A stretch of 64,000 bases of DNA from positions 62,001 through 126,000 of the forward strand of contig NZ_JBDOQT010000002.1 of NCBI RefSeq assembly GCF_039839785.1. The letters run 5' to 3'. A program made the position numbers and the translations under genes. The notes below the pieces were generated by a model. The model was given only the letters and a program-made list of their open reading frames with translations, made no database searches and was not told the DNA's origin. This document shows, piece after piece, positions 10,443-27,265 of this stretch (position 1 is the stretch's first letter; each line of letters begins with the position of its first letter). The stretch comes from Pelagibius sp. CAU 1746 (GTDB lineage Bacteria; Pseudomonadota; Alphaproteobacteria; Kiloniellales; Kiloniellaceae).

Positions 10443-11345
10443 ATGGCACGCACGGTTGTCAGCTCGCACTCCCGGGAATTGGTGATCGGCTTCGATCAAC
10501 CCTTCTGCATCATCGGCGAGCGCATCAACCCGACGGGGCGCAAGCTGCTGGCCGCCGAGATGGCCGCCGGCGACTTCAGCCGGGTCGAGGCCGACTGCCT
10601 GGCCCAGGTCGCCGCCGGCGCCCACATGCTGGACGTGAACGCCGGCATCCCGCTGGCCGACGAACCGGCGATCCTGGCCAAGACGGTGCAGTTGGTGCAG
10701 TCGCTGACCGACCTGCCGCTGTCCATCGACTCTTCCATCGTCGATGCCTTGGAGGCCGGCCTCTCCGTCTACCAGGGCAAGGCCCTGGTCAACTCGGTGA
10801 CCGGCGAGGACGAGCAGATGGAGCGCGTGCTGCCGCTGGTGAAGAAGCACGGCGCCGCCGTGGTCGCCATCTCCAACGACGAAACCGGCATCTCCGAAGA
10901 CCCCGAGGTGCGCTATGCCGTCGCCAAGAAGATCGTCGAGCGCGCCGCCGACCACGGCATCCCCAAGGAGGACGTGGTGGTCGATCCGCTGGTCATGCCG
11001 ATCGGCGCCATGGGCACCGCCGGCCGCCAGGCCTTCTCCATCATCCGCAAGCTGCGCGAGGAACTGGGCGTCAACACCACCTGCGGCGCCTCCAACATCT
11101 CCTTCGGCCTGCCCAACCGCCACGCCATGAACTCCTTCTTCCTGGCCATGGCCGCGGGCGCCGGCATGACCTCGGCCATCATGAATCCGCTGCACGAGGA
11201 GGAGCTGACCGGCATCATGGCCGCCGACGTGTTGCTCAACGCCGACAAGGACTGCCGCGCCTGGATCCGCAAGTTCCGCGAACCCGTTGCCGCCGGTGCC
11301 GAGGGTGAAGGCGGACGCCGTGAGCGCCGCCGGCGCCGCGGATAG
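10443..11345 (+). CDS. Methyltetrahydrofolate:corrinoid methyltransferase (MeTr type)
   Basis: Moves a methyl group between the corrinoid protein and tetrahydrofolate. The 300-aa protein has the pterin-binding TIM-barrel motifs of the AcsE/MetH family: IIGERINPTGRKLLAAEM near the start, HMLDVNAGIP, PLSIDSSIVDALEAGL, KALVNSVTGE and CGASNISFGLPNR. ATG at 10443 follows AAAGGAG. The C-terminus departs from the usual family end in a short Gly/Arg tail, GEGGRRERRRRRG, that resembles tails on other enzymes of the pathway. In this setting it would accept the betaine methyl from the corrinoid protein and make methyl-THF, feeding the MetF-like enzyme upstream. Confidence 0.92.
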   Translation: MARTVVSSHSRELVIGFDQPFCIIGERINPTGRKLLAAEMAAGDFSRVEADCLAQVAAGAHMLDVNAGIPLADEPAILAKTVQLVQSLTDLPLSIDSSIVDALEAGLSVYQGKALVNSVTGEDEQMERVLPLVKKHGAAVVAISNDETGISEDPEVRYAVAKKIVERAADHGIPKEDVVVDPLVMPIGAMGTAGRQAFSIIRKLREELGVNTTCGASNISFGLPNRHAMNSFFLAMAAGAGMTSAIMNPLHEEELTGIMAADVLLNADKDCRAWIRKFREPVAAGAEGEGGRRERRRRRG

Positions 11346-11366
11346 CCGAAGGGAGATAGCCTGCTC

Positions 11367-13412
11367 TTGCCTGGCAACGCCCCGAAAGACGCCCTGATCG
11401 TCTTCACGCCCTCCGGCAGGCGCGGGCGCTTTCCCGTCGGCACGCCCATCCTGAAGGCGGCGCGCAGCCTGGGTGTCGATATCGATTCCGTCTGCGGCGG
11501 CCGCGGGCTCTGCGGGCGCTGCCAGGTCGAGATCGGCAGCGGCGAATTCGCCAAGCATGGCATCACCAGCCGTCCCGGCCACGTCTCCGAGTGGAACCAG
11601 ATCGAGGCGCGCTATCAGGAAAAGCGCGGCATGGCCGAAGGGCGCCGCCTCTCCTGCCAGGCCCTGCTGGTCAAAGACGTCGTCATCGACGTGCCGGAGG
11701 AGAGTCAGGTCCACAAGCAGGTGGTGCGCAAGCGCGCCGAGGCGCGGGACATCGAGCTCGACCCCGCGATCCGGCTGCATTACGTCGTGGTCCAGGAACC
11801 CGACATGCATAACCCTACCGGCGACCTGGAACGCCTGCTGGCGGCACTGGAGGACCAGTGGGGGCTGACCGGCCTGGAAACCGACCTGCGAATCCTGCAA
11901 AGCCTGCAGAAGACCCTGCGGGACGGCCAATGGCAGGTTACCGTCGCGATCCACCGCGGCCAGGTGATCACCGCCACCTGGCCCGGCTTCCATGACCGCA
12001 GCTACGGCCTGGCGGTCGATGTCGGCTCCACCACGATTGCCGCCCACCTCTGCGATTTGGCGAGCGGCGAGGTGATCGCGTCTTCCGGCACCATGAACCC
12101 GCAGATCCGCTTCGGCGAGGACCTCATGAGCCGCGTCTCCTACGTCATGATGAACCCCGGGGGCGACGTGGAGATGACCAATGCGGTGCGCCGCGCCATC
12201 AACGAGCTGACCCTCGCGGTCTGCGCGGAGGGCGGCATCGACCGCGAGGAGATCCTCAACGCCACCTTCGTCGGCAACCCGGTGATGCATCACCTGCTGC
12301 TGGGGATCGACCCGACCGAACTGGGCGGGGCGCCTTTCGCCCTGGCGGCCAATTCCGGCATCACCCTATGGGCCAGCCAGCTCGACCTGCATTTCCATCC
12401 CAACGCCCGGGTCTACGTGCTGCCCTGCATCGCCGGCCACGTCGGCGCCGACACGGCGGGGGTCATTCTGTCCGAATCGCCCCACAAGACGGACAAGATC
12501 ACCCTGGTGGTCGACGTCGGCACCAACGCAGAGATCGTGCTGGGCAACAGCGACCGCCTGCTGGCCTGCTCCTCGCCCACCGGCCCGGCCTTCGAAGGTG
12601 CGCAAATCTCCTGCGGCCAGCGCGCCGCCCCCGGCGCCATCGAGCGGGTGCGCATCGACCCGGCGACCTTGGAGCCCCGCTTCAAGGTCATCGGCTGCGA
12701 GATCTGGTCGGACGAGGAGGGATTCGCAGAGGAGACCGAGAAGACCGGCGTCACCGGCATCTGCGGCTCCGGCATCATCGAGGTTCTGGCGGAGATGTAC
12801 CTGGCCGGCATCCTGGCGACCGACGGCACCATCGACGGCGCCCTCGCCGCCCGCAGCCCGCGCATCCGCCCCGACGGACGCACCTTCTCCTACCTGCTGC
12901 ACGACGGCACGGAGAGGGGCGGGCAGGAGATCAGCATCGTCCAGAACGACGTGCGCGCCATCCAGCTCGGCAAGGCCGCACTCTACGCCGGCATCCGCCT
13001 GCTGATGGATCGCCTGGGCGTGGAGCGGCTCGACCAGATCATGCTCGCCGGGGCTTTCGGCAGCCACATCGACACCAAACACGCCATGGTGCTGGGCATG
13101 ATCCCCGACTGCCCGCTGGAGCACGTCTACTCGGCCGGCAACGCCGCCGGCACCGGCGCGCGCATCGCCCTGCTGAACCAGGGCGCGCGCGACGAAATCG
13201 AGGGGGTCATCCGTCAGGTCGAGAAGATCGAGACCGCGGTCGAACCGAAGTTCCAGGCCCACTTCGTCGAGGCCATGGGCATCCCCCACGCCACCGCCGC
13301 CTTCCCCAACCTGGCCAAGGCGGTCGCCCTGCCGGCGGCCCGGCCACGGACCGCGGCCAACGACGGCGGCGACAACGGTGGCCGGCGCCGCCGCCGGCGC
13401 GACAGGGCCTGA
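11367..13412 (+). CDS. RamA-like ATP-dependent corrinoid activase (ASKHA, DUF4445)
   Basis: Reductively reactivates Co(II) corrinoid proteins that fall out of the catalytic cycle. The 681-aa protein starts with a [2Fe-2S] ferredoxin domain with cysteines 43, 49 and 52 (VCGGRGLCGRC) and 97 (LSC). A linker follows, then the ASKHA ATPase core with phosphate-1 loop AVDVGSTTIAAHL (about 213-225), LVVDVGTNAEIVLG, GICGSGIIEVLAEM and the adenosine-site segment IMLAGAFGSHI. The start is uncertain: GGGAG at 11351-11355 suits CTG 11361 (5 bases) or TTG 11367 (11 bases). The C-terminus is a basic tail, GGRRRRRRDRA. It is the last gene of the operon; electrons would come from a ferredoxin, perhaps reduced by KorAB. 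Confidence 0.92.
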   Translation: MPGNAPKDALIVFTPSGRRGRFPVGTPILKAARSLGVDIDSVCGGRGLCGRCQVEIGSGEFAKHGITSRPGHVSEWNQIEARYQEKRGMAEGRRLSCQALLVKDVVIDVPEESQVHKQVVRKRAEARDIELDPAIRLHYVVVQEPDMHNPTGDLERLLAALEDQWGLTGLETDLRILQSLQKTLRDGQWQVTVAIHRGQVITATWPGFHDRSYGLAVDVGSTTIAAHLCDLASGEVIASSGTMNPQIRFGEDLMSRVSYVMMNPGGDVEMTNAVRRAINELTLAVCAEGGIDREEILNATFVGNPVMHHLLLGIDPTELGGAPFALAANSGITLWASQLDLHFHPNARVYVLPCIAGHVGADTAGVILSESPHKTDKITLVVDVGTNAEIVLGNSDRLLACSSPTGPAFEGAQISCGQRAAPGAIERVRIDPATLEPRFKVIGCEIWSDEEGFAEETEKTGVTGICGSGIIEVLAEMYLAGILATDGTIDGALAARSPRIRPDGRTFSYLLHDGTERGGQEISIVQNDVRAIQLGKAALYAGIRLLMDRLGVERLDQIMLAGAFGSHIDTKHAMVLGMIPDCPLEHVYSAGNAAGTGARIALLNQGARDEIEGVIRQVEKIETAVEPKFQAHFVEAMGIPHATAAFPNLAKAVALPAARPRTAANDGGDNGGRRRRRRDRA

Positions 13413-26150: not shown

Positions 26151-26209
26151 CTTGCCCTCCCCGCGCCCAGGACCTATCGTTCACTCGCACTGAGGACCAA
26201 TTTCCGCCT

Positions 26210-27265
26210 ATGCCCGACCGCCTGACCGACCTGCTCGAAACCCGCCCCTGGCTGCTGGCCGACGGGGCCACCGGGACCAATTTCTTCGCCATGGGCCTGC
26301 AGCACGGCGACGCGCCGGAGCTGTGGAACCTGGAGCGCCCGGACGACGTGGTGAAGCACTACCGCAGCTTCATCGATGCGGGCTCGGACATCGTCCTGAC
26401 CAACACCTTCGGCGGCACCGCCAACCGGCTGAAACTGCACAAGGCCGAGGACAAGGTCTTCGGGATCAACAAGGCCGCCGCCGAGCTCGCCCACCGCGCC
26501 GCGAAGGAAGCCGGGCGCGACGACATCATCGTCGCCGGCTCCATGGGGCCGACCGGCGACCTCTTCGAGCCGCTGGGCCCGCTGACCATCGAGGCCGGCG
26601 CCAAGGCCTTCGAAGAGCAGGCCAAGGGCCTGGCCGCCGGTGGCGCCGACGTGGCCTGGATCGAGACCATGTCTTCCGTCGACGAGGTGAAGGCCGCCGT
26701 CCAGGGCGCCACCGCCGCCGGGCTGCCCTACGTCGTCACCCTCTCCTTCGACACCAACGGGCGCACCATGATGGGCGTGACGCCGGCGCAGCTCGCCCAG
26801 CTCGCCCATGAGCTTGAGCCGCGCCCCCTCGCCTTCGGCGGCAACTGCGGCACCGGCGCCTCGGAGCTCATGGCCGCGCTGCTGAACCTGGAGAGCGCCA
26901 AGGAGGAGGGCGACGTGCTGGTCGCCAAGAGTAACTGCGGCATCCCGCAGTACGTCGACGGCGAGATCGAGTACTCCGGCACGCCGGAACTGATGGCCGA
27001 CTACGCCCGCCTGGCGCTCGACGCCGGGGTACGCATCATCGGCGGCTGCTGCGGCACCTCGCCGACCCACATCAAGGCCATGCGCGCGGCCCTGGAAGCC
27101 CACGAGAAGGGCGACGCCCCCACCATGGAGCAGGTCGTCGTCAAGCTGGGCGAGATCTCCAAGGGCGCCGAGCAGCAACAGGCCGGTCCGCTGGGCGACC
27201 TGCCCGCCGCGCCCGAAGGCCGGCGTGGAAGGCGCGAAGGCCGCCGCCGTCGGGCGGAAAGCTGA
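26210..27265 (+). CDS. Betaine:homocysteine S-methyltransferase-like enzyme
   Basis: Zinc methyltransferase predicted to move a methyl from glycine betaine to homocysteine, giving dimethylglycine and methionine. The 351-aa protein has [17 protein letters not shown] and [11 protein letters not shown] at the N-terminus, [17 protein letters not shown] [15 protein letters not shown], and the zinc cysteines in [12 protein letters not shown] and [11 protein letters not shown]. The C-terminus ends in a basic tail, [15 protein letters not shown], outside the catalytic barrel. It is followed after 4 bases by a 2OG oxygenase gene. Other methyl donors such as S-methylmethionine are possible, but the choline/betaine setting favours betaine. 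Confidence 0.87.

Follow-up and report, generated by a model that had tools for sequence, protein, structure and literature searches.

Arginine-rich terminal tails on four enzymes of the MtgC methyl-transfer system of Pelagibius sp. CAU 1746 as possible docking elements

In a 64,000-nucleotide stretch of the genome of Pelagibius sp. CAU 1746 (G000:C2:62001-126000, hereafter the window; genome size 4.66 Mb), four enzymes of a corrinoid-dependent methyl-transfer system were found to carry an arginine (Arg)-rich tail at one end of the chain. By domain content the four are the MtgB, MtgD, MtgE and RamA/RACo activase proteins of a methionine synthase / glycine betaine demethylase of the split type. 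The tails are read here as docking or tethering elements, by which these enzymes could find the acidic corrinoid protein MtgC and stay near it, and the probability of this reading is put at about 0.52; contact of the tails with MtgC, and a gain in flux from that contact, would both belong to it. One tail type is common to the clients of a single carrier, which is oppositely charged, and docking is the simplest reading. The components were known already, and the tails together with an acidic extension of MtgC would be the new element. No prior description of the tails was recognised in the literature by title and start of abstract, most subscription papers being outside the search, and the words tail, arginine and disordered had 0 occurrences in the main texts of PMC12478193 and PMC12366255.

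Arginine-rich tails and the enzymes that carry them

Separate genes were identified for proteins with MTTB (PF06253), B12-binding (PF02310/PF02607), pterin-binding (PF00809) and S-methyl_trans (PF02574) domains, all above the Pfam gathering scores, and both a RamA/RACo-like activase and a DUF1638 protein were present in the window (Table 1). MtgE passed the PRK07534 betaine-homocysteine methyltransferase model (NF005718) with 489 bits against a cut-off of 338. Scores stayed below the NCBIfam cut-off for the anaerobe-type MtgC models NF047996 and NF047995 (210 vs 370 and 174 vs 310 bits), and below cut-off for the pyrrolysine-type MttB model TIGR02369 (274 vs 525 bits) and the AcsV corrinoid activase model NF040756 (406 vs 800 bits). 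MtgB, MtgC, MtgD, MtgE and RamA were placed in one system by genetics, with MtgC as the shared methyl carrier (PMC12478193, PMC5764234).

An earlier sequence-only reading of this DNA had reported four such segments, on the methyl-tetrahydrofolate (methyl-THF) methyltransferase, the activase, the BHMT-like enzyme and the MttB-family enzyme, and all four are present in the translations. MtgD ends in GAEGEGGRRERRRRRG and the activase in NDGGDNGGRRRRRRDRA, and MtgB, encoded on the minus strand (23054-21486), starts with MPNTAEAGGGAEARRGRRGSGGAGARRALRSGG. Many of the tails are runs of Arg, which made up 89-99% of their Arg plus lysine (Lys). The same reading had placed the segments outside the catalytic folds. 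This held for the three C-terminal tails, with the Pfam domain ending at residue 247 of 300 (Pterin_bind), 649 of 681 (RACo_C_ter) and 295 of 351 (S-methyl_trans); it held only in part for MtgB, since the MTTB model begins at residue 21, within the Arg-rich segment, though the AlphaFold2 confidence score (pLDDT) was <50 across residues 1-34 (25 sequences). Arg17, Arg18, Arg26 and Arg30 of MtgB were present in at least 90% of 25 aligned sequences. For the Sinorhizobium meliloti MttB, the sequence of structure 4yyc counts 525 residues, of which 479 appear in the coordinates, and its match begins within the tail; the 46 missing residues are probably mostly tail.

Table 1. Positions of the tails, the MtgC extension and the genes of the cluster in the window
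Feature	Position	Strand	Remark
MtgD Arg-rich C-terminal tail, residues 290-300, GGRRERRRRRG	11310..11342	+	>=5 Arg per 15 residues in 150/150 rows
RACo/RamA-like activase Arg-rich C-terminal tail, residues 671-681, GGRRRRRRDRA	13377..13409	+	136/137 rows
MtgE Arg-rich C-terminal tail, residues 336-351	27215..27262	+	49/49 rows
MtgB Arg-rich N-terminal tail, residues 1-34, predicted disordered	22953..23054	-	109/113 rows
MtgC acidic N-terminal extension, residues 1-22, MMMADDDDLDLSTLDDDELVKQ	7585..7650	+	candidate tail receptor
MtgC corrinoid (B12-binding) protein, proposed hub	7585..8292	+	Pfam and profile searches
MtgD gene, methyl-THF:corrinoid methyltransferase	10443..11345	+	Pterin_bind
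RACo/RamA-like corrinoid activase gene	11367..13412	+	RACo_C_ter, 310 bits
MtgB gene, MttB family	21486..23054	-	MTTB; below cut-off of pyrrolysine-type model
MtgE gene, BHMT-like homocysteine methyltransferase	26210..27265	+	PRK07534, above curated cut-off
DUF1638 protein of the system, without Arg tail	8327..9019	+	DUF1638, 102 bits
Small 'virulence factor'-like protein	9007-9324		name taken from annotated relatives
MTHFR-like protein, weak match	9155-10294
DMGDH-like protein	23469-26036

The sequence-only reading would have been undermined by absence of the tails from most close homologues; instead they were found in nearly all fetched orthologues, at 33-73% guanine plus cytosine (G+C). At least five Arg per 15 residues were counted in every MtgD and MtgE row, in all RACo rows except one and in all MttB rows except four (Table 1), the latter being L135, L179 (gene start unrecovered), L315 and L317. 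Three 'odd' rows, open reading frames (ORFs) open at contig ends and partial matches were left out of these counts, as were rows below 50, 45 and 42% identity for MtgD, RACo and MtgE. The rows are phylogenetically non-independent: identical ones were removed, but near relatives stayed in, as did some genomes that occur in two collections. In five rows (L087, L172, L079, L279, L397) the printed frame overran a stop, and some tail counts may include residues behind it. The MttB counts used a fixed 32-residue stretch that may take in residues before the true start; recounted from the nearest, conservative start, 75 of 77 rows at 60% identity or above reached the threshold.

An alignment of alphaproteobacterial homologues had been proposed, to check for co-occurrence of tails and clusters with the acidic corrinoid protein; the tails extended beyond the Alphaproteobacteria. 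Besides Alphaproteobacteria, the best 80 loci kept in a scan for MtgD relatives included records with Acidimicrobiia, Halomonas, Pseudomonas or Thioglobus in the title and a single Chloroflexi metagenome-assembled genome (MAG); the taxon names come from record titles, and many are MAGs, possibly mis-binned. The loci titled Acidimicrobiia and Gammaproteobacteria kept the MtgD tail, and the RACo tail where the gene was complete (weaker in Pseudomonas), and also had MttB tails and acidic MtgC N-termini. In the Chloroflexi MAG a five-Arg MtgD tail was visible, the sole tail that could be seen there. Tails on MtgD and RACo were also found in Azoarcus sp. KH32C, S. meliloti and Paracoccus aminovorans, the latter two having the MttB tail too and MtgD tails among the weaker ones. 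Overall, tails were seen in Alpha-, Beta- and Gammaproteobacteria and Acidimicrobiia.

Within the cluster the tails went with the clients of MtgC. When 657 called genes of 74 loci were scored for at least five Arg per 15 residues near the C-terminus, the threshold was reached by 64/64 MtgD, 60/63 RACo (124/127 for the two together) and 3/4 MtgE, against 1/186 non-clients: 0/36 MtgC, which thus has no C-terminal tail itself, 1/34 DUF1638, 0/34 virulence-factor-like, 0/30 MTHFR-like, 0/37 sarcosine oxidase subunits and 0/15 DMGDH-like proteins. Other, flanking genes reached it in 17/316 cases. At the N-terminus the figures were 20/24 for MttB and 49/316 for flank genes, a weak comparison since the longest ORF was used, for which the genome control given below (3/341 at six or more Arg) is the better one. 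At the family level, tails were present in 4/4 MtgC clients and 0/9 other cluster families (Fisher p 0.0014), the latter count being entered by hand from the same census with C-termini compared (C- or N-terminus for the clients). Tails as a general property of the gene cluster were rejected on the 1/186.

The same folds serving other carriers were mostly found without tails. Three solved MeTr chains (2yck, 2yci, 1f6y) end at most 2 residues past the match, in the solved RACo 3zyy the match runs to residue 628 of 631, only tag letters precede the match in the Desulfitobacterium MtgB chain, and the MtgB chain 9yce aligns from its residue 3. In the Methanosarcina MttB 26 residues stand ahead of the match, and its N-terminal residues are described as structured (PMC9842639). 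Distant RACo proteins had no tail in seven genomes from the phylum's other classes (L291-L296, L309), in a haloarchaeon, in Acetoanaerobium and Vescimonas (both Clostridia) and in Thiodictyon. No Arg tail was seen at the C-terminus of MetH in 10/10 genomes, the own genome and nine others. Three of these nine encode a separate homocysteine protein, also tail-less; a fourth separate homocysteine module (L408), with an odd frame and Arg-rich letters before a possible start, was not counted. Separate homocysteine modules of other cobalamin proteins thus lacked the tail in the three cases seen, and that of the MtgC system bears it. Tails as a general property of B12 methyltransferases were rejected on the tail-less solved chains, distant RACo and MetH.

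The enzymes themselves largely travel together. Among 385 genomes of the class an MtgD orthologue (at least 63% identity over the match) was found in 76, three being fragmentary, and an MttB (E <= 1e-60) in 80, all 76 included; MtgE was found in 58, with 57 within the 76. Of 30 genomes tested for MtgC, 28 had it, the two misses being 64% and 68% complete. Four of the 385 had MtgB without an MtgD orthologue (G056, which has MtgE too, G064, G127 and G173); MtgC is present in all of these but one, whose genome is 68% complete, and the MtgE of G056 still ends EPRRRSSRR. A clean natural loss of the tail, in genomes with MtgE or MtgB but no hub, was not found among the 385. MetH (PF02965) was present in 14/14 genomes without MtgE and in 4/13 with it, the own genome among the 4 (Fisher p 0.00015; 27 hand-picked, non-random genomes).

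Base composition and chance

Codons of Arg and glycine are rich in G+C and the window has 63-70% G+C, so the tails might be a by-product of G+C drift at protein ends, the artefact against which the sequence-only reading had warned: in that case unrelated proteins encoded by this genome should bear them as often. They were uncommon there. In 341 called genes over 390 kb (19 evenly spaced stretches and one chosen for holding MetH), with Arg counted per 15-residue window within the final 25 residues, only 4 other genes of the genome had at least six Arg and 1 at least seven; three had at least six at the N-terminus. Scores of 7, 7 and 8 were obtained for the three C-terminal tails, the sole 3 of 55 called genes of the window with at least five; set against the 4/341, their 3/3 gives a Fisher p of 5e-6. 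The MtgB tail is unscored in this control because the gene caller placed the start later. A four-Arg DNA pattern sought genome-wide was uninformative (5122 matches per strand).

Tail and body also responded differently to base composition. The Arg fraction of the MtgD tail was independent of G+C (rho 0.03, p 0.72) and that of the MtgD body was not (rho 0.34); the dependence was weaker in tail than in body for RACo (0.16 vs 0.51) and MtgE (0.27 vs 0.71). For MttB it was equal (rho 0.28 each), the tail Arg climbing with G+C as the body does, which favours drift there. Against it, tails persisted at 33-50% G+C; in loci below 50% G+C, 90/299 tail Arg codons were AGA or AGG, and one genome with 33% G+C (G062) kept all four tails. 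Because Arg predominates over Lys as given above, AGA/AGG are used at low G+C and the tails of G062 are kept, Arg would appear to be selected as a residue. With the genome control and tails spanning 33-73% G+C, the artefact was rejected, and drift is extremely improbable as an explanation.

The MtgC extension and the explanations of the tails

The candidate receptor is an N-terminal extension of MtgC, about 22 residues long, in which Leu11, Leu14, Leu19 and Gln22 are invariant. Its net charge was -5 to -11 in 43/43 aligned sequences (the window and 42 of 54 listed), and the equivalent MetH segment had -2 to +2 in 10/10. The alignment with the nearest solved corrinoid protein, 1y80, starts at residue 23. 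In the proposed mechanism the Arg tail on each client and this acidic extension or helix would supply proximity, through contacts that may be weak, fast, exchangeable and electrostatic. Tail docking would thereby stand in for the covalent joining of homocysteine, folate, cobalamin and reactivation modules in MetH. Many MttB paralogues might deliver methyl groups to one carrier, and new ones could plug in. The common docking partner proposed by the sequence-only reading fits the genetics, the specificity and the acidic N-terminus of MtgC as candidate; physical docking is inferred, and the charges were found without co-variation.

Several observations weigh against docking to MtgC. Its extension is mostly predicted to be an ordered helix, with pLDDT of about 97 at residues 11-30 and <50 at residues 1-6 only. 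A separate haloarchaeal corrinoid protein without Arg-tailed partners is also acidic (-7), where acidity is general; two other separate outgroup corrinoid proteins had net charges of -3 and 0. Across loci no significant correlation was seen between tail charge and the charge of the MtgC extension, with rho -0.25 (p 0.08, n 50) for MtgD, -0.18 (p 0.26, n 44) for RACo and 0.01 (p 0.98, n 23) for MttB. From the conservative start, the MttB tail score was reached in only 16/22 rows at 50-60% identity and 16/20 below 50%. One RACo (L105) is without a tail, and a distant alphaproteobacterial RACo (L290), next to a dissimilar corrinoid protein, has Arg scattered near its C-terminus, at about 4 per 15 residues. 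Finally, methanogens form MttB-MttC and MtaB-MtaC complexes that, going by their descriptions, need no such tails (PMC9842639).

Arg-rich disordered tails are typical binders of nucleic acids or membranes. The main rival explanation is accordingly that the tails bind another common polyanion (RNA, the ribosome, the nucleoid, polyphosphate or a membrane surface) and gather the enzymes in a condensate or surface metabolon without contact to MtgC. That the tails are rich in Arg rather than Lys, and that their charge does not track that of MtgC, would suit it. RGG-box tails, which bind RNA, were considered for comparison; many of the present tails are runs of Arg. We consider the polyanion explanation unlikely, as it leaves unexplained why within the cluster the clients of MtgC alone bear tails, why MetH is tail-less in this genome and in similar ones, and why MtgC has an opposite, conserved charge. 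It is quite improbable that the tails are read by an adaptor dedicated to the cluster, either DUF1638 or the small 'virulence factor'-like protein, that assembles the enzymes around MtgC. Both genes do travel with the cluster, and DUF1638, which had no assigned role, showed cofitness with methionine genes (PMC5764234); but in a haloarchaeal cluster that includes genes for a corrinoid protein, RACo and DUF1638, the RACo and MtrH-like proteins are without a comparable Arg tail.

The tails might also act for each enzyme on its own, by keeping it soluble, stabilising its oligomer, shielding it from proteolysis or steering anionic folate or homocysteine, and have converged without a shared partner. 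Each fold differs, and in the archaeal MttB the N-terminal segments stabilise the oligomer (PMC9842639), which speaks for such roles. One tail type on four unrelated folds of the MtgC system speaks against them, as do MetH and the solved homologues of other systems, which have the same chemistry and no tail, and this explanation is judged very improbable.

If docking to MtgC is true, the carrier might be an open hub, usable by any methyltransferase that gains an Arg tail, and the tail would mark undiscovered MtgC clients across several bacterial lineages, a feature by which more MtgC-dependent methyltransferases could be recognised from sequence; this extension is tentative, with odds somewhat short of even. 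An open hub, if true, would explain the expansion of MttB paralogues without adjoining corrinoid genes. Up to 15 MttB-family matches were found in one genome (76 genomes), and no corrinoid match was seen within about 4 kb at any of 20 paralogue loci (41-57% identity, hand-picked among many). In MttB proteins below 60% identity the basic N-terminus was mostly kept, 32/42 having at least five Arg per 15 residues from the conservative start.

Related systems and neighbouring genes

The same set of MTTB, B12-binding, Pterin_bind, S-methyl_trans, RACo and DUF1638 proteins has been described as MtgBCDE and RamA in Ruegeria pomeroyi and Phaeobacter inhibens (PMC12478193, PMC5764234), and to these descriptions the tails and the acidic MtgC extension would add a proposed mechanism of assembly. 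Much of the demethylation of osmolytes in the ocean is reported to run through MtgBCDE, which R. pomeroyi also needs to make methionine (PMC12478193). The Bmt of P. inhibens was active alone in vitro, and it was stated as open whether it partners with the split enzyme or acts alone (PMC12366255). A tail common to MtgE and three other clients of MtgC bears on the place of MtgE in the split enzyme: it favours Bmt/MtgE working with the split enzyme, solo action being possible too.

How separate proteins find one carrier without linkers was not explained in the literature searched. Canonical MetH has homologous homocysteine, folate and cobalamin modules, but in one or two chains, with C-termini seen without Arg tail and a near-neutral segment ahead of the cobalamin cap. 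The MtgB, MeTr and RACo of anaerobes and the archaeal MttB-MttC share folds and chemistry; their solved MeTr, RACo and MtgB chains and the distant RACo of Clostridia and a haloarchaeon differ in being without tails. In MtaC an N-terminal domain docks MtaB (PMC9842639), which is likewise an N-terminal extension of a corrinoid protein used for docking, though it is a domain for one partner, and in MtgC one acidic helix would serve several. The docking domains of polyketide synthases and nonribosomal peptide synthetases (PMC9113145) are short terminal segments linking separate assembly-line subunits, which the terminal position and predicted disorder of the tails would fit; here, one tail type is borne by four unrelated folds around one proposed hub, and no pairing code was seen.

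At a haloarchaeal locus (L393, a plasmid of Halomicrococcus gelatinilyticus) genes for a corrinoid protein, RACo and DUF1638 stand together with those for an MtrH-like methyltransferase and FAD oxidoreductases, and comparable Arg tails are absent. In the locus L094 a second MtgD-like copy (about 10443-11231, minus strand; 75% identical, residues 1-263) adjoins the intact one and seems truncated before the tail. Outside the window, the Pelagibius genome has a second MttB-family gene (G000:C2:33736-35250, L403), 41% identical, with the Arg-rich start MAREAGRRRARQGAGARGGGRGQTG. The MtgD gene of the window had 96% identity with that of Pelagibius marinus, the closest named organism among the matches listed. 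Four sarcosine oxidase subunits are also encoded in the cluster, and DUF1638 and small 'virulence factor'-like genes accompany the system in other classes too.

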